From positions 1-23,110 of IMG/VR virus record IMGVR_UViG_3300025785_001290: DNA of 23,110 nt. One strand, written 5' to 3'. This document shows positions 1 to 22,875 of this stretch, piece by piece. The stretch comes from a virus. How positions within the stretch are numbered: position 1 is the first letter of the stretch; each line of letters opens with the position of its first letter. A program made the position numbers and the translations under genes. The notes beneath the pieces are model-generated. The model was given only the letters and a program-made list of their open reading frames with translations, searched no databases and was not told where the DNA came from.

Positions 1-1818
1 CTTTACTGGTTCTGTCTTTCCCTTGACGGCGAGTAAGTCGAGCTCAACGACTTGGTATGTATCTCGTACATACTCGGCGGTTTTTGGTCCGATGACAATT
101 TTGACCCCGTAAGGCTTTGATTGACCTTCCAAACGAGATGCCAAATTGACCCCATCACCCAAGCAAGTATAATCAAAACGCTGGGCACTGCCCATATTAC
201 CGACAACAACAGTATCAGTATTAATACCGAGACCCATTCCAAAAGCGGGGATTCCTTCTGCGGTAACTTCATTGTTAAATTCCTTTAATGCTTTCAACAT
301 CTGGAATGCAGTTCTAACAGCATCTTTAGCATGTTGTTCATTGTTAACAGGAGCATTCCAGAAAGCCATCTGCGCATCACCGATGTACTTGTCCAGTGTA
401 CCCTTGTTTTCAAGAATCGCTTTGGTCATTGCTGTCATATAACGATTCATAATCTTAGTTAGTCCCTGTACATCCTTGCCGTAGTGTTCTGAAATTGTAG
501 TAAACCCGCGAACGTCAGTGAACATGATAGACAACTCTTGTTCGGTACCGCCTAGCTGTAGCATATCTGGATTGCGCTGCAACTGCGCAACAAGATCCGG
601 TGACAAATATGTGCCAAACTGTTTCTTAATTTGTTGCTTCTGAAGGAACTCATTAATGAATTTAACTGAATAAACGTGTAAATAAATGACTAGTGCTGCT
701 AGGAAGTTAAAGGATATATCGAATAATATTTTATTGTGGTTAAACATATAAACAGGCGCATATACATAACCTGCTAGAAGTATACCAATCCAAACAATAG
801 AATATCTTACATTAGACAATCCGATAACTGCAAGAGAAAGAAAAGCAAATGCCGCAAGATCAACAAGACCAACCCAATTCGGAATCGAAACAGAATCTCC
901 ATTTAGAAGAGTCTGGAGAATACTGGCCTGAACCTGATGGGGCATTTCGGCACCAGCCGGAGTCGCTACGGGATTTGCAATTCCGCTCGCAGTCACACCA
1001 AGTAGAACGATCTTTCCATCGAGACGAGGAATATTCTCGCCTACTTCAAACGATGAGAATACGTAATTCGGGTTATTAAAAATACGCCCATATTCATCAG
1101 TGGAGATTTTACCAAACTGTGGAACACGAACCGCCTCAACTCCCGTCTCATTTATCTTCGCTTGATAGCTTGGATCGCCTGCGGCAGTACGTAGAAGCTC
1201 TAAAGCAAACGAGGGATAGTATTCTCCAGCTGATGTCGCTAACATTGGAACTCGACGAACAACACCGTCCGATTCGGGAAGAGTCGATGTTATTCCAACG
1301 CCTGCGGCAGATTCTTGAAGACTTGGAATATTATCGAGCACACATGGATAGTTTGGAAGAAAGTCTGTTGGCTTACCGTCTCCAACAACTGCGACGCCTG
1401 TTCGACGAGTAGCTGCGTTATTGCGTGTGCAATCTGAGGAAACTGTCTGACTTAATACTACTGGGTAATTTTTAAGTGATGCTGCGAAAGCATCGTCACC
1501 GTTAAATCTATCTTTTTCAGGGTATAACATAGTGCTACCGACGAGGCCAGCATGACCAGTACCGTACAGATCAGAAATAATTTTCGCATAAGTGTCCCTT
1601 GGAAATGGATATTGACCATATTTGGCCAAGGCTTTTTCACCAATATTTGCAATTACAATCTGTTCACTATGAACAGGTTTACCTAACATTAGATAGTCAT
1701 AGAATTTAAGTTTCATTGCATCAACTAGATACGGGTTTGACAGTTTAACCACCAACAGCAGCGCAAAGGTTAGTATCGCTAACCAAGGGCTTAACAAAAC
1801 TTTTCTTAAATTCTTCAT
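1..1818 (-). CDS. CHASE2-domain class III adenylate cyclase (3' end outside window)
   Basis: Membrane sensor enzyme predicted to make cAMP from ATP. It is read from ATG 1818 (AAGGA upstream) and is open at the window edge after 606 codons. An N-terminal hydrophobic segment (about 10-25) precedes an extracytoplasmic CHASE2 region (about 30-300; DGVVRR and YPSFALEL fit the family). Three hydrophobic segments follow (about 310-390), then a cytoplasmic cyclase domain (about 425-606). The metal-binding aspartates D435 (FTDVRGFT) and D481 (KYIGDA) are present. K477 and the DYT motif fit adenine recognition, and N558 and R562 (NLASRLE) are the transition-state residues, so the enzyme looks active. 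The last residues, GKTEPVK, are typical of the domain end, so little is missing. It is the last visible gene of the curli-like operon, 10 bp after the PA14/curlin gene. The specificity call (cAMP rather than cGMP) is family inference. Confidence 0.93.
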   Translation of the reverse strand, partial: MKNLRKVLLSPWLAILTFALLLVVKLSNPYLVDAMKLKFYDYLMLGKPVHSEQIVIANIGEKALAKYGQYPFPRDTYAKIISDLYGTGHAGLVGSTMLYPEKDRFNGDDAFAASLKNYPVVLSQTVSSDCTRNNAATRRTGVAVVGDGKPTDFLPNYPCVLDNIPSLQESAAGVGITSTLPESDGVVRRVPMLATSAGEYYPSFALELLRTAAGDPSYQAKINETGVEAVRVPQFGKISTDEYGRIFNNPNYVFSSFEVGENIPRLDGKIVLLGVTASGIANPVATPAGAEMPHQVQASILQTLLNGDSVSIPNWVGLVDLAAFAFLSLAVIGLSNVRYSIVWIGILLAGYVYAPVYMFNHNKILFDISFNFLAALVIYLHVYSVKFINEFLQKQQIKKQFGTYLSPDLVAQLQRNPDMLQLGGTEQELSIMFTDVRGFTTISEHYGKDVQGLTKIMNRYMTAMTKAILENKGTLDKYIGDAQMAFWNAPVNNEQHAKDAVRTAFQMLKALKEFNNEVTAEGIPAFGMGLGINTDTVVVGNMGSAQRFDYTCLGDGVNLASRLEGQSKPYGVKIVIGPKTAEYVRDTYQVVELDLLAVKGKTEPVK

Positions 1819-1828
1819 CACGCTATCC

Positions 1829-3025
1829 TTAATGCTTTACATAGGAGTATCCTGTGCAAGGTCCAGAGGTACACGTAATGCTCATTGACGCACTGTCAGC
1901 GGTGGTAGCATTATCTTGAACAACTGTTACTCCAACGTTAGCACTATTTATAGTTAAAGAGAATAACTTCTGTGCTGCGCCGGCCTGTGTAACGCTTACG
2001 GTATTTCCGCTGGTGGGGATGTTTAATTCAAGAAAATGATTAGCATTGCCCTGCTGTGTTGTAGTAATTGAGTTGTTGCTACCACTAACTTCAATAAATG
2101 CACTTTTGCCCGCAGTTCCGGATTGGGTGACATTGGCAGAATTAGTGCTACCATTAATATTTGCTTCTGTATAATTCGAAGACGTTTGTTGATTAATGGA
2201 CAATGTATTGTATGAACCTATTATAGAGGCTTCTAACAAATTATTATATCCAGGAACCGTAGTGCTTCCTTGTTGCACATTCATGGTATTATAGTTACCA
2301 TTGATCACAGCAGATTGTGCTCCATTAATACCTCGTATCACATTGTAATCACCTGTTTGTGTTATAGTCACATTGGTATTATTTCCATAGTTTTGAATAT
2401 ATACAGAATTATTTGTCAACGACACAGTCTGTGATATTTTAACAAGTTCTTGAGTAGATACTGAAGCACTAGGTAATGGCGCTCCCCCATCTCCGAATGC
2501 TTTTGGATTTGGCATCGTTGTTACATAATCACTATTTGGTATTAACGTGATAGAACCGGATTGATTCCAAAATAACTCTACTGCGGCGCCGCCGCCATTT
2601 TCATAATACCACACGTCAAACGCATAGGTTTGGCCGCCTTGCAGGGTTATAGAACCGCGCCCGTTCCAATTTGCTGGTCCTTGTTCTTGCCAATTACTAA
2701 TAACTCGCGAACCGTTGACATTTAAAATAAATCCGTCATCGGAATAATCATAAAATGTAATAGTCTGCGATCCAGAACCAGGAACAGTAATGTATCCGGT
2801 GAAGTGTATTTCAACTCCGTCTGCTAGTCCGGAATTCATAACAATTCCTGTTCCCCAGTTGTAATTGATGTTAGTAGTTGTTCCAGAATTTAATGCCTGA
2901 CCGCATCCGAAACAAGGAGTAGGTCCACCTGCGCGGTATACCTGATAGTTAACATCCGCAAAAGCTCGTGGAGTGAATAACATTAAACATAGAACAAAAA
3001 TCAAGAGCTTATTAAAGGGTTTCAC
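1829..3025 (-). CDS. Secreted PA14-domain / curlin-repeat fusion protein (putative adhesin)
   Basis: 398 aa, GTG start that overlaps the fecR-like stop as GTGA, with GAGGAG about 10 nt upstream. A signal peptide (about 1-23, ending AFA) is followed by a PA14-like beta-barrel at about 25-172. It carries the hallmark aspartate pair D96-D97 in YSDDGFILNVNG, which in yeast flocculins and related adhesins binds calcium and sugar. From about 195 to 375 the chain is made of Asn/Gln/Ser/Thr-rich curlin-like repeats (NTMNVQQG, NSITTTQQGNANH, NTVSVTQAG), which predict a beta-solenoid. Cysteines C38/C41 and C385/C390 could form disulfides. A natural reading is a sugar-binding head on an amyloid-like stalk exported through CsgG. 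The fusion order is seen in the sequence; the ligand and export route are inferred. Confidence 0.86.
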   Translation of the reverse strand: MKPFNKLLIFVLCLMLFTPRAFADVNYQVYRAGGPTPCFGCGQALNSGTTTNINYNWGTGIVMNSGLADGVEIHFTGYITVPGSGSQTITFYDYSDDGFILNVNGSRVISNWQEQGPANWNGRGSITLQGGQTYAFDVWYYENGGGAAVELFWNQSGSITLIPNSDYVTTMPNPKAFGDGGAPLPSASVSTQELVKISQTVSLTNNSVYIQNYGNNTNVTITQTGDYNVIRGINGAQSAVINGNYNTMNVQQGSTTVPGYNNLLEASIIGSYNTLSINQQTSSNYTEANINGSTNSANVTQSGTAGKSAFIEVSGSNNSITTTQQGNANHFLELNIPTSGNTVSVTQAGAAQKLFSLTINSANVGVTVVQDNATTADSASMSITCTSGPCTGYSYVKH

Positions 3026-4176
3026 TTTGGCGGTGCTCCTCGCTGAATAATAGTAATTGTTCCATCGGGTCGTCCCGTACCCGGAGTAGGCCAGTGATGA
3101 TCGGAGAAATTAAATCCGCCAACAATTCCGTCTTGTTCTGTTGTTATTTCTACTTTGGTATTTTTAGGTAAAATGATAATAGATTCTTGTAATTTACTGT
3201 CAGAAATTGTAGTATATGTCCAACCGATCTGGATTAATTTCTTACTAAGCAAGGGATCGACGTCTGTATACACTGTTTGTTTTAATTTTTGTCCCGGATT
3301 ATACTCTACGTATACGGCTTGGAGTTCTGGCTGTGTAGGTGGATTGGCTATAGCAGCAGCAACCATTTCTACATTATCTGTAGTATTTAAATCAGGCTCT
3401 GCGTTTTTATCAGCAGCATTACCCGCCGCATTGGTTTTTTTGAATTCTTTTTTTGCTGACTGTTCTAGGCTTGTACCATCCGAGGTAGGGGGCGTTGCAA
3501 TCTGCAATGAGTTGTTTAATTGCCGGGAGTTAAGGCTAACTGTTTTCGGTGGTGTCGGAGATATATTTGCGCTATCTACTACAGTGGCTTGGAACGGCTT
3601 GTTTAGAGTAACTTTTCCAGTAGCGGTAGCAACTTCGATTTCACCTGTTGGACAATCTGCGATTAGCTTATCCGGATCTTTTTCATCATAACAATTTGGC
3701 AGCAGAACAACCATAGTTCTACCAATCTCGTCAACACTCATGATAAAATCTGTACCACGTACACCAATTGTGGCAGTAGGTGAATGAATATTTACTGCTC
3801 CGGGATTGTTATGAGCAATTGCACCCGATGCATAGCGTACAGTGCCTAGTGCAACTTTAAGTCCTAGCTTACCTTTATTTGATTTTCCGCCATCGAACAC
3901 AAAATCATCTATTACTAATTTGCTATTTTCTGTAATACTAACTGTGGTTGCATCCACAAACGTGATTTTAAATTTTCCTTGACTATTAGTAGAAACAGTA
4001 TCATTCTTTTCAATGCCTGCACCTTTGGCAGCAGGCATGGCCCGGGCAGCACGTTTAATCTGCCCGGCGCCTTTAAACTCTGTTATTGATCCAATACCGG
4101 CATAAGCAGGCACTGACAATAACATCAGTAATAATGCTAATAGTTTACTTGCCTGTTTTAATGTTGATCGTACCAT
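3022..4176 (-). CDS. Periplasmic FecR-domain protein
   Basis: A FecR-domain protein of 384 aa from ATG 4176. A GTG at 4188 would add four residues, but neither start has a good ribosome-binding site. The gene overlaps the upstream curlin gene by about 30 nt. A signal peptide (ending PAYA, about residue 26) is followed by the FecR fold at about 30-160, with LGTVRYASG and the signature SPTATIGVRGTDF. The rest is Lys/Asn-rich with no transmembrane segment after the signal, so the product is probably periplasmic or secreted. It is not the classical FecR: there is no cytoplasmic anti-sigma N-terminus, no FecI-like sigma gene and no TonB receptor nearby. FecR-domain proteins of this exported type are known next to CHASE2 proteins in bacteria, which fits its position two genes before the cyclase. 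Its partner and ligand are unknown. Confidence 0.85.
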   Translation of the reverse strand: MVRSTLKQASKLLALLLMLLSVPAYAGIGSITEFKGAGQIKRAARAMPAAKGAGIEKNDTVSTNSQGKFKITFVDATTVSITENSKLVIDDFVFDGGKSNKGKLGLKVALGTVRYASGAIAHNNPGAVNIHSPTATIGVRGTDFIMSVDEIGRTMVVLLPNCYDEKDPDKLIADCPTGEIEVATATGKVTLNKPFQATVVDSANISPTPPKTVSLNSRQLNNSLQIATPPTSDGTSLEQSAKKEFKKTNAAGNAADKNAEPDLNTTDNVEMVAAAIANPPTQPELQAVYVEYNPGQKLKQTVYTDVDPLLSKKLIQIGWTYTTISDSKLQESIIILPKNTKVEITTEQDGIVGGFNFSDHHWPTPGTGRPDGTITIIQRGAPPK

Positions 4177-4921
4177 TTGATCCAACACTTGTTAAATTAA
4201 TAATGGTAGAATTTGGTCCATACTGTTGAGTTGTAACATTATTATTCGAACCGGTTATATTTTCATATAAACTGTGTCCATACATGCCACCAATGTCAGA
4301 CTGAGTAGCATTAACAGTGTTGTAACTGCCATTGTATACCACAGTCTGGGAAGCATTAGGAGAGGTAACATCCATATTTAAAGTATTGTTACTACCAGTT
4401 ACATTTACAGTATTGGTGATGTTCGCTGCTGCACCGTGAAATACATAAGAATTGCTATCCCCAGTGAATAATGCGTTCATATTAAGATTGTTACATGATG
4501 CTTCGTTTGTGCCGTTACCGCAACGAACAACAGCAGAGTTGCTATTACCAATCTGTCGTAGGGTTACTGTTGCTAATCCCAATGCTCCTGTATCAGAAAC
4601 AACAGATGCCAATACTGAGTTACTATTTCCTGTTTGAATTACAGTAACGGTTTGATTGTCACCTCTTAGATAAACAGGGTCACTTAATGTACCTACTGTG
4701 TTAGTTTGACCAGTTTGTTGGACGTTGATATTGACGTTAGAACCTGCTTGATTGATATAAACTCGGTTTGTTTGTGCAACTGCATCTGCTTCTGCCTGAT
4801 TAGGTGAAGTAGCAACAATTGCTGGTGGCGATGGCGGTGTAGGCACAGTTGCCACTGATTGTGCAAACGCAGGCGATGCAAATAATACTGTGGTAAGTAA
4901 TATTGATTTTAATAGTTTCAT
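4145..4921 (-). CDS. Secreted curlin-repeat (CsgA/CsgB-like) protein
   Basis: 258 aa, ATG overlapping the csgG stop (ATGA), with AGGAG 8 nt upstream. A signal peptide (1-20, cleavage after AFA) is followed by a Pro/Ala-rich linker (about 21-50). That linker replaces the Gly/Asn-rich export segment of E. coli CsgA. Residues about 52 to 258 hold repeats with the curlin pattern of Asn, alternating hydrophobics and Gln-x-Gly-x-x-Asn: VYINQAGSN, VNVQQTG-like, TVTVIQTGNSN and TVTLRQIGNSN are the clearest, degenerating toward the C-terminus. C134 and C143 may form a disulfide. Lying directly after csgF-csgG, it is the best candidate for the secreted fibre subunit. Whether it is the CsgA or CsgB equivalent cannot be told from the sequence. 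Confidence 0.87.
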   Translation of the reverse strand: MKLLKSILLTTVLFASPAFAQSVATVPTPPSPPAIVATSPNQAEADAVAQTNRVYINQAGSNVNINVQQTGQTNTVGTLSDPVYLRGDNQTVTVIQTGNSNSVLASVVSDTGALGLATVTLRQIGNSNSAVVRCGNGTNEASCNNLNMNALFTGDSNSYVFHGAAANITNTVNVTGSNNTLNMDVTSPNASQTVVYNGSYNTVNATQSDIGGMYGHSLYENITGSNNNVTTQQYGPNSTIINLTSVGSNGTINIKTGK

Positions 4922-5739
4922 CTTGATTGCTCCTGTGGCTTAGCCTTAAAACGCCAAAGCCCTTTCCTTTCTCCCTGCTTTATTAGCTCTACAACTCCTG
5001 TCTCTATAGCAGACCGTATTGCATAGCTGGCTGGCTCATTTCTAGTTTGTTGACCGTCAACTTCAAATGCCTTTGTGCCTAGATCAAAAAACTCAAATGC
5101 AGTAATACCTTCAGAAGTAGATAGCACAGTTTTTTCAACGGTTACTGTCTCTAGAATTTCTCCAGTTTGTACAGACACTAATCGTAAACTAATTACTACC
5201 TCGTCCTGAATGTACTGTGTATTTGGACCAATTCCTAGAAATCTAACACCATTGCCTCCGGTCTTAACATCGGAGTTATAGTCAATAATGCCACCTTCTA
5301 GGAGTACACCCGCTACCATCAGGGGAGGTAGCGGTGCTGCTTTGTCGCCGCTCTCTAATTCACGCATTTGACGAATCAATTGGCGTTCTTTAATTAGAGA
5401 ATCAAGCGATACTCTTTCTACAGGGCGAAACCACTTTCCGCCACCGGAATCTTGTAGGGTTTTTACCACGTAGGCATCTGCACCTTGTGTAACAGCAGTC
5501 GAAAACGACGACACTGTTTGTGAAGGTTTACGTTGTCCTGTCTTATCTGTAAAACTGTAAACTGCGATAGGAATCGGAACACCATCTAATTCTGGAAGAT
5601 TTGCCCAAAGTTTTGGATTAGTGTAAGTGCTAACAGTAGCAGGAACAGGATTCAAATAGGAATGATTTAGCCTAGGACCAATTCCGCCCACGCATCCGGA
5701 TAATGCAAATAATAGTGGTAATACTATTAACTTTTTCAT
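4918..5739 (-). CDS. csgG: CsgG-like curli secretion channel (outer-membrane lipoprotein)
   Basis: 273 aa, close to the 277 aa of E. coli CsgG. A lipobox LSGC gives lipidated C16. The CsgG family forms a nonameric outer-membrane beta-barrel that exports curli subunits. Conserved blocks are visible: FSTAV at 79-83, SLIKERQLIR near 114-123, the membrane-hairpin region SDVKTGGNGVRFLGIG (156-171), TGEILETVTVEKT (192-204) and SAIETGV with GLWRF near the end. The constriction loop (about 71-79) keeps the Phe of E. coli F56, but the Tyr51 and Asn55 positions hold Ser/Gln and Ser, and the loop seems one residue longer. AAGGAG precedes the ATG, which lies 9 bp after csgF. Confidence 0.96.
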   Translation of the reverse strand: MKKLIVLPLLFALSGCVGGIGPRLNHSYLNPVPATVSTYTNPKLWANLPELDGVPIPIAVYSFTDKTGQRKPSQTVSSFSTAVTQGADAYVVKTLQDSGGGKWFRPVERVSLDSLIKERQLIRQMRELESGDKAAPLPPLMVAGVLLEGGIIDYNSDVKTGGNGVRFLGIGPNTQYIQDEVVISLRLVSVQTGEILETVTVEKTVLSTSEGITAFEFFDLGTKAFEVDGQQTRNEPASYAIRSAIETGVVELIKQGERKGLWRFKAKPQEQSR

Positions 5740-5748
5740 CTTAACTCC

Positions 5749-6198
5749 TTAAAACGCGAATGTTGCAATTGGAACGGTCACTACCGTTTGGTTCCCAGAC
5801 GAATCGACAACAGTTAATGTTACATCGCTGTTTGATTTGACATAGCTAATTGTGTTACCATCTAACTTGAATGTACCTGCAGTCGACGACCCAGGAGCAC
5901 CGCCGAAAAGGTTGTTGCTCAACTGCGTTGCTAACTGTGAATATACCTGACTAGTAAATAGGTTAATAAACTTAGCCATTGGAGTGTTTGCGGCAGCGGT
6001 CGCAGCAGCTTGTGCGGCCGCATTTTGAGCATCGATTAATGCTTGTTTTCTCGATTGTTCTTCCTGTTGGATTGTTACAACGTAACTACCCCAACCTGCT
6101 CCACTAAACGCAGGGTCTTTAAATTGTTGTGTTAAATCACCAGCGAAGGCAGGACTACTTAGTGTTAATAGAATCAGTGCTGCTAGAATCTTTTTCAT
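5749..6198 (-). CDS. csgF: CsgF-like curli assembly factor
   Basis: 149 aa with a signal peptide (1-19, ending AFA). The mature N-terminus reads GDLTQQFKDPAFSG, matching the E. coli CsgF segment TFQFRNPNFGG that inserts into the CsgG pore and caps it at the cell surface. An Ala-rich linker (about 60-73) and the helix FINLFTSQVYSQLATQL with NNLFGG follow, then a C-terminal beta region (TLTVVDSSGNQTVVTV) like the CsgF tail. In curli systems CsgF couples the pore to nucleation of the fibre outside the cell. The start has a near-perfect AGGAGGT ribosome-binding site 8 nt upstream, so strong translation is expected. Confidence 0.93.
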   Translation of the reverse strand: MKKILAALILLTLSSPAFAGDLTQQFKDPAFSGAGWGSYVVTIQQEEQSRKQALIDAQNAAAQAAATAAANTPMAKFINLFTSQVYSQLATQLSNNLFGGAPGSSTAGTFKLDGNTISYVKSNSDVTLTVVDSSGNQTVVTVPIATFAF

Positions 6199-6239: not shown

Positions 6240-6527
6240 TCAATCTTCAGTATCTTTAACATTTCTATTTTTAGATTTATGTACACTGTGATCCTCCTCT
6301 ATCTGTAGCACTACGCTCACTTTTTGCTGTAATCTTATTAAATCATTGTCTAACATACGAATTCGATCAATTAGCGCAACTAGAACTACGTTTGTCTCAC
6401 CAATTAATGGCATCAATCGTTCAGTAACGAACTTATAAATGAAGTACACGAAATACCCCATTCCCACAGACGAAACTATCGGAAAGCCATATTGCTTAAT
6501 CAATAATGCTAATTGATTTGGATCCAT
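6240..6527 (-). CDS. Small membrane protein, second of a tandem pair (YvrJ/holin-like)
   Basis: 95 aa. One hydrophobic segment at about 14-33, beginning GFPIVSSVGMGYFVYFIY, is followed by an amphipathic, coiled-coil-like stretch (about 45-75) and a charged tail. It is a diverged copy of the gene just upstream, sharing GFPIV, G-x-FVYF and the D-R-x-R-x-(L/M)-(D/N)-x-D pattern, and starts at TAATG on that gene's stop. The GFPIV start of the membrane segment resembles YvrJ-family proteins and some small phage membrane proteins. Candidate roles are holin, antiholin or an inner-membrane component of the curli-like machinery that follows 41 bp downstream. The sequence does not decide. Confidence 0.8.
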   Translation of the reverse strand: MDPNQLALLIKQYGFPIVSSVGMGYFVYFIYKFVTERLMPLIGETNVVLVALIDRIRMLDNDLIRLQQKVSVVLQIEEDHSVHKSKNRNVKDTED

Positions 6528-6814
6528 TAGTCTCTTCTCGCATCATTCTTGCCGTCGGCTCGTGCGATACGATCGAGATCCGGTCTTAGTCCCAATGCCG
6601 AACTTACGGTGGCATCGATACGAATCATATCATGATTCATAGTTCTAACTCGGTTGTCTAGCGCAGTGATAATTCCCTGCATGCCTTTAATGGCTTTGAC
6701 AACGCTTTCGAGAATGTAATTGATTACGAAATAGACAAAGACGCCGCCTCCTATAGCCGCAACTATAGGAAATCCGACGTCTCCGATTAACTTAAAGATT
6801 ACATCACTATTCAT
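6527..6814 (-). CDS. Small membrane protein, first of a tandem pair (YvrJ/holin-like)
   Basis: 95 aa, the same length as its neighbour. A transmembrane segment at about 14-33 (GFPIVAAIGGGVFVYFVI) is followed by a helical region with DNRVRTMNHDMIRI and an Asp/Arg-rich tail. It is the first gene after the 146-bp gap at 6815-6960, and so the probable first gene of the curli-like operon. It also lies directly downstream of a peptidoglycan-hydrolase gene, a place where phages often keep a holin. I see no clear ribosome-binding site; GCGTGC precedes the ATG. Confidence 0.8.
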   Translation of the reverse strand: MNSDVIFKLIGDVGFPIVAAIGGGVFVYFVINYILESVVKAIKGMQGIITALDNRVRTMNHDMIRIDATVSSALGLRPDLDRIARADGKNDARRD

Positions 6815-14621: not shown

Positions 14622-15056
14622 TTACCTGGGTCTCTCGAGCTCGATTATATTTTCGAGGAGAAATTCTTCAGGTATTTGACTGGTTAAAAACGCTTCAGTA
14701 TCTGAAAAATTTAAAACCTGCTCATCGTCTACATAGATTACATTGTACAATCTTTTACGAACTTTGTCTACCAATGTTCTTAATTGTATTGTAGAATTTT
14801 TATAACGGTCAGTTAGCAATAAGGTATAACCCATCATTATTGCTTTGGTAAAATCATCATAACGATTTTGTTCAATAATTTCCCACGGAGTTGGCCAACT
14901 AGCCGGGTAAAAGGGATCAATCAACACGTTATTAGGAATGATTGGGGTTTGTTGCCAAAAGTCTATTAAGTCTTGTAACGGATCGTCACTGACTTCTAGT
15001 GCTTTTCGCAAACTTGACCATGCCGCTAGCCGGTGGTCGAGATCTAATTTAAACAT
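14622..15056 (-). CDS. Conserved T4-like marine phage protein
   Basis: 144 aa, starting at TAATG on the stop of the tail-fibre gene. The most conserved-looking block is LIDFWQQTPIIPN with NVLIDPFYPASWPTPWEII and DDFTKAIMMGYTLLLT (about 30-80). This Pro/Trp-rich block is of a kind I associate with small proteins of T4-like cyanophages. The C-terminal half is alpha/beta. No membrane segment. Translational coupling to the fibre suggests a fibre-assembly or baseplate-associated role, but this is only context. Confidence 0.72.
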   Translation of the reverse strand: MFKLDLDHRLAAWSSLRKALEVSDDPLQDLIDFWQQTPIIPNNVLIDPFYPASWPTPWEIIEQNRYDDFTKAIMMGYTLLLTDRYKNSTIQLRTLVDKVRKRLYNVIYVDDEQVLNFSDTEAFLTSQIPEEFLLENIIELERPR

Positions 15057-16630
15057 TATTGCCTTACGTAAACAGAGTAATTTAATGATCCAGCAAACGA
15101 CGGACTAACTGTCGTTGCCATAATTTCGATTGCTTGTGGATTTGAAAGATTTACAGAAAATGTAGTTCCGCCATCATTGGCACCACTGAAGGTAAAATTA
15201 TCAGTAATTGTGCTTGTGCCATTATTAACTAGAACTGTAATTAATCCACGACGAATAGTTGTACCAATAGACAGAGTGTAGTCAATTTCAATTTCTTGTC
15301 CAACACTAGAAATACCGTGAATACCGTAGCTGCTAATTGTCGGCCACACAAACAATGGATATGTGGTAGTACCTATTGCAATAGCCAAAGGAGTACCTGC
15401 AAAGGACGAATAAGTGCATGGTCCGTTGACTACCGGAGCAATCGAAGTAAATTGAGCAACGCTGCCAGTATTAAGTGCTACCAATCTAGAAAAATCATCA
15501 TTGCTTGATGAATTTTGATATGAATTAAACGTGATGACATCAGTGACTGGTGAAAAATCACCGTTGGTGCTGCCGTAACCGATACCTACTTTAGAATAAG
15601 AATTGTTAAAGCTCTTGATGTAGTTTACGCCCGAGAAGTTATTTCCGACATATAATCCTTGATTGTTGACTAGATAGAAACTATTGTCATGAATGTTAAC
15701 GTGCTGTGGTCCATTTAGGCTTCCGACACCGCCCGTTAAATTCTTAGAGAATGCAATACCTGCATCAACGCTCTTGAATTTGTTATCATGAATATCAATA
15801 TTAACGATATCATAGTCGCTCTTGATTCCAGTTCCTAGATTTGAGAAAACGCATTCTCTGATATTGACATTATCGCAGGTAAGTGCGCCGAGTCCGATCA
15901 TTTCTACGCCAGCAGCTAATGTGCTAGTCGATGCAATACTAGTATTACCGATAAAAGCACAATTCGAAATGATACTGTCCACTGCACAATTAAGCTTCAC
16001 CATCGATCCTGCATTAGTCAATGACGACACAAAAGTAACGCCATCAATTTTAATATTCTTCGGAGTTTTAGCAGCACTATTAACATCAGTTAATACACTG
16101 GATAAATTCGATCCCACTGTTTGGAATATACTTGCAGTAGTGGTAGCAACTAGGATGGTTTTATTTTGTCCTGCTCCATGAATTTCAGCATATGGAGGAA
16201 CTAAGATAGTTGCTGTAACATAGTAGGTACCTTCAGGAATAGTCAATACCTTGGTGTTAGTAGCACCGAATGTAATTGCTCGACGTAGAGCATCTTGATC
16301 ATTGCCAAAACTGTTGACGTTAAGGGAATCATCTAATCTACTCTGCAAGGTTCTAACGATATAAGGGTTGCTAGGAGGACCTGTAATGACTGCAGGATTA
16401 GTACTTTGGTATGTATAGTCAGCAGTTACAGTGAACAACCCGGTGTCGTTCACTGTAAGCAATCGAGTGTTACCTACAGCAGGAGCACCTTCACTGACTG
16501 AACCGTTACCGATATATAGCTCTTGTTGGTCAATGCTCCAACCAAATTCTCCACTTGCTAGTTGTGGAAATCCTGTTTGAGCAGTTTGTCCTCTTCGAAT
16601 CTGAACCCTTGAAATTTGGATTACGGCCAA
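15056..16630 (-). CDS. Tail fibre/spike with pectate-lyase-type beta-helix
   Basis: 524 aa, TTG start with AGGAG 7 nt upstream and a late-promoter box 22 bp upstream. The N-terminus (about 1-60; ISRVQIRRGQTAQTGFPQLASG broken by a turn, then LYIGNGS) is the short attachment domain common at the head of phage tail fibres. Residues about 95-400 form repeated right-handed beta-helix coils (VNIRECVFSNLG, VNIDIHDNKFKS, VNIHDNSFYLV), as in pectate-lyase-like spikes. The C-terminal 120 residues look like a beta-sandwich. The likely role is receptor binding or polysaccharide trimming at the tail; enzymatic activity cannot be judged from the sequence. Confidence 0.86.
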   Translation of the reverse strand: MAVIQISRVQIRRGQTAQTGFPQLASGEFGWSIDQQELYIGNGSVSEGAPAVGNTRLLTVNDTGLFTVTADYTYQSTNPAVITGPPSNPYIVRTLQSRLDDSLNVNSFGNDQDALRRAITFGATNTKVLTIPEGTYYVTATILVPPYAEIHGAGQNKTILVATTTASIFQTVGSNLSSVLTDVNSAAKTPKNIKIDGVTFVSSLTNAGSMVKLNCAVDSIISNCAFIGNTSIASTSTLAAGVEMIGLGALTCDNVNIRECVFSNLGTGIKSDYDIVNIDIHDNKFKSVDAGIAFSKNLTGGVGSLNGPQHVNIHDNSFYLVNNQGLYVGNNFSGVNYIKSFNNSYSKVGIGYGSTNGDFSPVTDVITFNSYQNSSSNDDFSRLVALNTGSVAQFTSIAPVVNGPCTYSSFAGTPLAIAIGTTTYPLFVWPTISSYGIHGISSVGQEIEIDYTLSIGTTIRRGLITVLVNNGTSTITDNFTFSGANDGGTTFSVNLSNPQAIEIMATTVSPSFAGSLNYSVYVRQ

Positions 16631-22230: not shown

Positions 22231-22875
22231 TCAGTGGAATTTAATTCCCGATGCTGCTTCTACAGTAGCGAGCGGAACTTCATTAACTGGAGCCTTAACA
22301 GTGTTGTTGGCAACGTAGGCTTTGATCGTGCCGTCCTTAAGATATACAATCTTGTAATAGCTTGTAGGAACTGGAACATTGTGCTTGCCGATTGTCTTGG
22401 TGCTGCCTGTGTAGATTGCACCAGTGACAATATAAGTTGCTGGCATTGTACGGACATTGGCTTCTAGCATACGCCAAGAAATACGATTAACAGTTGGCTC
22501 CTGTGGAGTCATATTTGTCATTAGAAAAGTATCAGACATTTGATTGTCGTTGCCGGCATCTGCCGCAGGTGTAAGATGTCCACGGTCAAGTCCAGTGTTG
22601 TCGTAATCACCCGGAGTTGGGGAGTTTTTGAGCCGGGGGTCGGCGTGAAAATTGTTTGATCGTTCCACTTTGTCTGCGTGTGGAAGGAACGCTTCTGTGG
22701 AAAAAATAGCTTCTTCCTTATTGGCATTGTAGACAGTGGCATAGAAAGTGTTGCAGAGAACCTGTGTACCTGGTACAACAATTTCCTTGCCGTTTGGAAA
22801 GAATTGATCACAGGCCGAAGCATGTGCTGCTGCCGGTGCAAGTAGAAATGAAAGTGCAAGAAATAGTTTCTTCAT
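22231..22875 (-). CDS. Secreted DNA/RNA non-specific endonuclease (NucA/NUC1 type)
   Basis: 214 aa. A signal peptide (about 1-19, ending AHA) sends it to the periplasm or outside. The family's DRGH motif is at 97-100 (catalytic H100) in LDRGHLTPAADAG. N121 (TNMTPQ), the metal-binding N130, and the W134/E138 block (RISWRMLEANVR) follow in the normal order. AAGGA precedes the ATG and a late-type box lies 25 bp upstream. It would cut DNA and RNA without sequence choice, plausibly degrading incoming competitor DNA or released host DNA, or helping lysate spread; these roles are inferred. Confidence 0.93.
   Translation of the reverse strand: MKKLFLALSFLLAPAAAHASACDQFFPNGKEIVVPGTQVLCNTFYATVYNANKEEAIFSTEAFLPHADKVERSNNFHADPRLKNSPTPGDYDNTGLDRGHLTPAADAGNDNQMSDTFLMTNMTPQEPTVNRISWRMLEANVRTMPATYIVTGAIYTGSTKTIGKHNVPVPTSYYKIVYLKDGTIKAYVANNTVKAPVNEVPLATVEAASGIKFH

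Follow-up and report, generated by a model that had tools for sequence, protein, structure and literature searches.

The analyzed stretch of DNA (the window; virus record IMGVR_UViG_3300025785_001290, which at 23,110 bp ends with the window) carries a gene for a CHASE2-class III adenylate cyclase, positioned as the last gene of a phage curli (T8SS) operon. An earlier note, made from the letters alone, had described such a gene, and the observation is confirmed. In kind, the finding is real but already known, because the cultured phages HTVC008M and Melnitz and the pelagiphages described by Wittmers et al. 2022 (PMC9599517) show the same module. Comparison of the phage sequences adds a new feature: the cyclase half of the protein appears to have moved between phage lineages separately from its sensor half.

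A CHASE2-cyclase gene in a phage curli operon

The cyclase reading frame (Table 1) is free of stop codons from either possible start through window base 1, and its C-terminus (~79 residues) falls past the contig edge. Two other contigs, L004 and L005, are 100% identical to the window protein across 606 residues and run on to a stop codon, giving a full-length cyclase of 686 codons from the GTG or 685 residues from the ATG. Because of these identical contigs, a frameshift or genuine truncation can be ruled out. The gap is due only to the contig edge, and the gene is intact, as the earlier note had supposed. Both Pfam domains scored far past the cut-offs. According to hydropathy and the AlphaFold model, the CHASE2 domain is flanked by an N-terminal transmembrane (TM) helix and three later ones. 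The enzyme is membrane-bound, as the earlier note had it, and its CHASE2 domain is predicted to face the periplasm. With CHASE2 placed N-terminally to a class III cyclase and with TM helices, the predicted protein falls into the CHASE2-cyclase class by architecture. The model of a complete relative (mean pLDDT 90, pTM 0.71) has the same order of N-terminal helix, CHASE2 domain, three long helices and cyclase domain. In the comparison with PDB, where the matches listed concern the cyclase part, this domain superposed at ~2 Å on the adenylate cyclases CyaB (3r5g, Z 22.6) and CyaC (1wc1, Z 22.0). The gene is under purifying selection: where computable, dN/dS is 0.03–0.19 overall and 0.03–0.16 for the window protein against close relatives, and it is well under 1 in CHASE2 as well as in the cyclase domain.

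Table 1. Cyclase gene and curli cassette of the window (all features on the minus strand)
Feature	Position	Strand	Details
CHASE2-class III adenylate cyclase	1..1821	-	606 of 685 aa; start GTG 1821 or ATG 1818
CHASE2 sensor domain	832..1761	-	aa 20-329; Pfam CHASE2 E 1.4e-35
Class III cyclase catalytic domain	10..540	-	aa 427-603; Pfam Guanylate_cyc E 6.8e-21
PA14 + curlin-repeat protein (second curlin type)	1829..3025	-	PA14 E 2.7e-14; Curlin_rpt 23.6 bits, cut-off 20.7
Exported FecR-domain protein	3022..4188	-	FecR E 8.1e-11; signal-peptide-like helix
Curlin-repeat protein, CsgA/B-like, weak repeats	4145..4921	-	Curlin_rpt E 0.098, under cut-off
CsgG outer-membrane curli secretion channel	4918..5739	-	Pfam CsgG E 2.3e-51
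CsgF	5749..6198	-	Pfam CsgF E 5.3e-17
h95a, small TM protein with conserved helical motif DRxRMLDNDxIRL, cassette-linked	6240..6527	-	
h95b, h95a paralogue	6527..6814	-	

The functions of the active-site positions in class III cyclases are well established. All six catalytic or adenine-selecting positions are occupied as expected for adenylate cyclases of this class (two Asp, Lys plus Thr, Asn and Arg): D435 and D481 for the metal, K477 and T551 for adenine selection, and N558 and R562 for the transition state. The earlier note had listed all of these except T551, the second adenine-selecting position, and its residue numbering was exact. The six columns are conserved in same-type phage relatives and likewise in 79 of 79 full-length bacterial CHASE2 cyclases, in which position 551 is either Thr or Ser; the metal Asp and the Lys residues are retained throughout the aligned phage family. 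The pocket (K477, T551) points to adenine, in contrast to the pyrimidine-selecting pocket of Pycsar PycC, and among the operon genes no PycTM or PycTIR effector is apparent. Judging from these residues, the window gene is predicted to encode an active adenylate cyclase.

The genes of the cassette are transcribed from the same strand in the order h95b, h95a, CsgF, CsgG, curlin, FecR, PA14/curlin and cyclase, and those from CsgF to the cyclase either overlap or lie at most 10 bp apart. The stretch from CsgF through CsgG, curlin, FecR and the second curlin to the cyclase reproduces the module of PMC9599517. The earlier note had pointed to FecR and fibre assembly, and the FecR and curli genes do share one operon with the cyclase. 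The first curlin-repeat protein has weak repeats, yet QxGxxN occurs in it three times compared with 0.2 in shuffled sequences (P 0.001), and its position is conserved among loci. The two h95 proteins are TM paralogues of ~95 residues with a highly conserved motif of the DRxRMLDNDxIRL type, found at the head of the cassette in most phages; among 50,697 phage records they had matches only in HTVC008M and Melnitz. In the pelagiphage module a histidine kinase precedes CsgF (PMC9599517), whereas the window has the two h95 proteins there. Neither these nor any other of the 22 h95 members had a kinase match, the published kinase being compared by description only.

The phage FecR protein differs from the FecR of FecIR cell-surface signalling. 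In all 38 phage members examined, the FecR domain is the sole match after the signal-peptide-like helix and the N-terminal, cytoplasmic anti-sigma part is absent; among the flanking proteins scanned, no partner sigma factor of the ECF type was recognized. The FecR model (mean pLDDT 73) matches the cell-surface-signalling domain of PupR (6ovk) as well as a putative anti-sigma factor (4m0h). It also superposes at 1.0 Å on 61 residues of an adhesin 'cell surface anchoring domain' (5ix9). The last 40 residues of the window FecR contain a strand motif, N.I.I.Q, that looks like one half of a curlin repeat, and N.[IVL].[IVL].Q is present in the final 30 residues of 73 of 129 phage FecR proteins, compared with 2 in shuffles. 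Profile comparison with the curlin repeat gave a probability of 22%, and no member matched Pfam Curlin_rpt, so the curlin-repeat reading of this C-terminus is only a hint.

Outside the cassette, the window codes for a CHAP protein, ThyX, glutaredoxin, NrdB, NrdA and a tail-fibre-like protein. Such neighbours fit a phage genome, as the earlier note had supposed. The tail-fibre-like protein (15056-16630) combines an Mtd N-terminal domain with a pectate-lyase-like match. Another gene (22231-22875) encodes a DNA/RNA non-specific endonuclease (PF01223, E 2e-35). Its start resembles a signal peptide, pointing to an exported nuclease in a phage.

Relatives of the cassette in phages and bacteria

HTVC008M (GenBank KC465899) and the Methylophilales phage Melnitz (Buchholz et al. 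2022, PMC9004378) have the same cassette, in HTVC008M with the same genes in the same order. Their cyclases are ~39% identical to that of the window over 97–98% of the length (39% over 98% for HTVC008M, 39.5% for Melnitz). They differ from the Thr551/Asn558 type of the window in being Ser551/Asn558 (HTVC008M) and Asp551/Ser558 (Melnitz). The curli, FecR and adenylate cyclase module was described in pelagiphages, with the viral clade nearest Alphaproteobacteria (PMC9599517), and curli genes in phages were reported earlier or in parallel (PMC7029224, PMC9004378). The term 'CHASE2' is absent from the main text of PMC9599517 and PMC9004378, and an infection-transcriptome paper (PMC12753301) does not mention HTVC008M, curli or cyclase. 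The earlier note knew of no well-described phage CHASE2 cyclase and suggested searching viral sequences for the domain. With HTVC008M, Melnitz and PMC9599517 at hand the former statement does not hold, and the search of IMG/VR returned at least 594 matches to the CHASE2 cyclase, so homologues are common.

Of the 133 viral loci that include 6 kb or more of sequence before the cyclase gene, 131–132 contain CsgF, CsgG, curlin and FecR, and the gene order is conserved in nearly all. As the viral loci were fetched by order of similarity and are redundant, such counts do not represent natural frequencies. Phylogenetic analysis placed 36 sampled phage cyclases in one group separate from the bacterial enzymes (SH-aLRT 100). 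The cassette also occurs on two large viral contigs, L034 (360,683 bp) and L088 (258,859 bp), possibly from jumbo phages. The Melnitz record (L003:9164-11958) annotates two curlin-associated-repeat proteins and FecR, while PMC9004378 states that csgA/csgB are lacking. A short unannotated Salmonella phage record with a CsgG-like gene (OR851715.1, 1499 bp) may represent host DNA.

For comparison with bacteria, we sampled 80 loci with CHASE2 cyclases, in which 79 enzymes are full-length. FecR and CHASE2-cyclase genes are paired in bacteria too: 19 of 27 bacterial FecR ORFs are no farther than 1.5 kb from a CHASE2 cyclase, compared with 7.0 expected from random placement inside the locus, a simple null (P 2e-6), and 12 of the 27 are directly upstream of it on the same strand. 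Viewed from the cyclase, FecR was immediately upstream in just 10 of 64 bacterial cases and can thus be regarded as a non-obligate partner; since the FecR HMM was built from phage sequences, bacterial FecR counts are lower bounds. The pairs resemble those of phages in combining a class III cyclase with FecR immediately upstream, as in Sinorhizobium meliloti CyaK, whose gene overlaps the upstream FecR gene by 1 bp, and its Bradyrhizobium relatives. Unlike in phages, curli genes were not found in the searched flanks of the bacterial pairs. The bacterial cyclases are 32–37% identical to that of the phage, and their FecR partners, among those scanned, are often large and adhesin-like, with adhesin-typical cadherin, bacterial Ig-like, laminin-G or RTX domains in four of eight cyclase-linked proteins. 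The S. meliloti CHASE2 cyclases are reported to raise cAMP when a plant protein signals through the outer-membrane barrel NsrA (PMC13001267). A related arrangement is the Burkholderia BiofilmReg operon, named as biofilm-regulating (PMC5192318), in which a FecR protein (with LysM) is likewise encoded beside a CHASE2 sensor; in contrast to the phage, its output is a histidine kinase rather than a cyclase and curli is missing. The gene pairs in bacteria make the FecR link proposed in the earlier note more likely.

The idea that the entire cassette derives from a bacterial curli operon was considered and rejected. In agreement with PMC9599517, neither FecR nor a CHASE2 cyclase was found within ~8 kb of CsgF-CsgG at any of five alphaproteobacterial loci. 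Since bacterial FecR/CHASE2 pairs exist and these five curli loci have neither gene, phages probably joined two bacterial modules, curli and the FecR/CHASE2-cyclase pair.

Sensor and cyclase halves across phage lineages

Three active-site types were revealed at positions 435, 477, 481, 551, 558 and 562 of 255 phage sequences: DKDTNR, the type of the window (100 sequences), DKDSNR, the type of HTVC008M (78), and DKDDSR, the type of Melnitz (77). The types require two changes, the minimum, on the cyclase-half tree, compared with six on the sensor-half tree. In the domain trees, DKDDSR cyclase halves form one clade (100/100), and their sensor halves fall into at least two well-supported clades. 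Across lineages, the cyclase half can be 94–95% identical, compared with 36–42% outside it. For instance, contigs L108 and L005 share 94% identity in the cyclase, 42% in CHASE2 and 36–48% in CsgF, CsgG and FecR. The opposite is also observed: in L161 and L128 the cyclase shows only 49% identity, with 75% in CHASE2 and 68–72% in operon genes. The identity switches around residues 360–400. In close pairs, synonymous divergence is sometimes higher in the cyclase half (e.g. pS 0.78 compared with 0.53 in the sensor half). From the trees and identities we infer that the cyclase half passed from one phage lineage to another without the sensor half or the compared operon genes, probably more than once and through recombination at the TM/linker junction. 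We did not find this exchange reported in PMC9599517, PMC9004378 or the other literature examined.

In one contig (L076) the two halves are split. A sensor half 99% identical to that of the window is followed by a 240-residue ORF and then by a separate TM and cyclase ORF with 77% identity. The inserted ORF (L076:2577-3299) matches GIY-YIG homing endonucleases (PHROG 5123, E 1.6e-5) and resembles annotated phage homing endonucleases. The insertion sits where the exchange is seen. It occurs in just one contig, 4.3 kb long, and may be an artefact of assembly. No RNA families were found at the gathering threshold in either the window or L076.

Possible role of the cyclase in infected cells

We give an even chance to the reading in which a functional cyclase uses cAMP to signal how the curli/FecR apparatus made by the phage is faring. 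The periplasmic CHASE2 domain would sense the state of this apparatus (the CsgG/CsgF pore and the curlin subunits), with the FecR-domain protein of the same operon as intermediary. The signal would then cross the inner membrane to the cyclase and change cAMP in the infected cell, the presumed target being a host cAMP receptor. The intact reading frame, the complete active site, the domain order, the conserved operon, purifying selection and the bacterial FecR pairs are observed and speak for this mechanism; catalysis, the contact between FecR and CHASE2, curli as the cue and the host target are predictions. Counting against it are the lack of a cyclic-nucleotide (cNMP) effector in 12 related phage records, the scarcity of CRP-type HTH domains in small genomes, Ser558 in a third of the sampled phage relatives (77 of 255), the modest share of bacterial CHASE2 cyclases with FecR immediately upstream (10 of 64) and the five curli loci that have neither FecR nor the cyclase.

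Some of these points concern the output. In the 12 records we found no phage-encoded cNMP-binding protein, and a phage-encoded cAMP receptor was accordingly dismissed. Genomes of ~1.3–1.4 Mb are expected in the host group of Melnitz. A CRP-type HTH above the cut-off was missing from most of the smallest genomes of this size sampled in the family of a Methylotenera locus. CRP control therefore cannot be assumed for every host, and in some hosts the cyclase output may have no classical receptor. The occurrence of the Ser558 type alongside CRP-poor small genomes is a suggestive parallel.

The cue could also be a different one. An active cAMP sensor might respond to another envelope signal, such as membrane stress, infection stage or lysis timing, with FecR and curli merely co-expressed. 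CHASE2 ligands are generally unknown (PMC5192318), most sampled bacterial CHASE2 cyclases had no adjacent FecR found, and for Melnitz a role of CsgGF in the timing of lysis has been proposed by its authors (PMC9004378). However, FecR and curlin genes are nearly always linked to the phage cyclase and FecR is enriched beside bacterial CHASE2 cyclases, which leaves this option a clear minority of the probability, though the largest share among the alternatives. It is considerably less probable that in the DKDDSR type (the Melnitz clade) the cyclase domain is inefficient for cAMP and has become a regulatory or altered-substrate domain. The joint replacement of Asn558 by Ser and Thr551 by Asp, which is fixed in those 77 phage sequences out of 255 but absent from all 79 bacterial enzymes, would fit such a change, as would purifying selection on the domain (dN/dS 0.05–0.07 in the two computable comparisons). 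Yet the variant retains the metal aspartates, Lys and Arg, and the window protein, with its Asn558, falls outside the idea.

We consider it very improbable that the cyclase counters a host defence based on nucleotide signals, for instance by acting as a decoy for Pycsar-type cyclases or by competing with them. The domain does match PADLOC PycC models (E 3.9e-24), and its swapping between lineages is often seen in arms-race genes. However, any class III cyclase is expected to match PycC, K477 and T551 select adenine, and both the CHASE2 fusion and the curli linkage would be left unexplained; a Pycsar identity is unlikely, the PycC matches being generic only. That the cyclase is a passenger, retained solely through travel with the curli cassette, is hardly credible given dN/dS far under 1 in both domains and the fact that every aligned member has kept the metal and Lys residues.

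Returning to cAMP reporting on the curli apparatus, a broader and more tentative extension is that phages run modular one-protein signalling on their own curli, in which the sensor half follows the phage lineage and the cyclase half is swapped, possibly with the aid of homing endonucleases inserting at the junction between sensor and output. The output types (Asn-type and Ser-type) would then be interchangeable and perhaps matched to whether the host has a cAMP receptor.

Widespread in aquatic phages, the cassette brings to curli-less hosts a fibre system together with a predicted second-messenger output. The FecR-CHASE2 pairing suggests that bacteria and phages monitor surface fibres or adhesins by a common route; if true, this would propose an input for CHASE2. 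The natural exchange of output halves may also offer ready-made chimeras that mark where sensor and cyclase can be joined.
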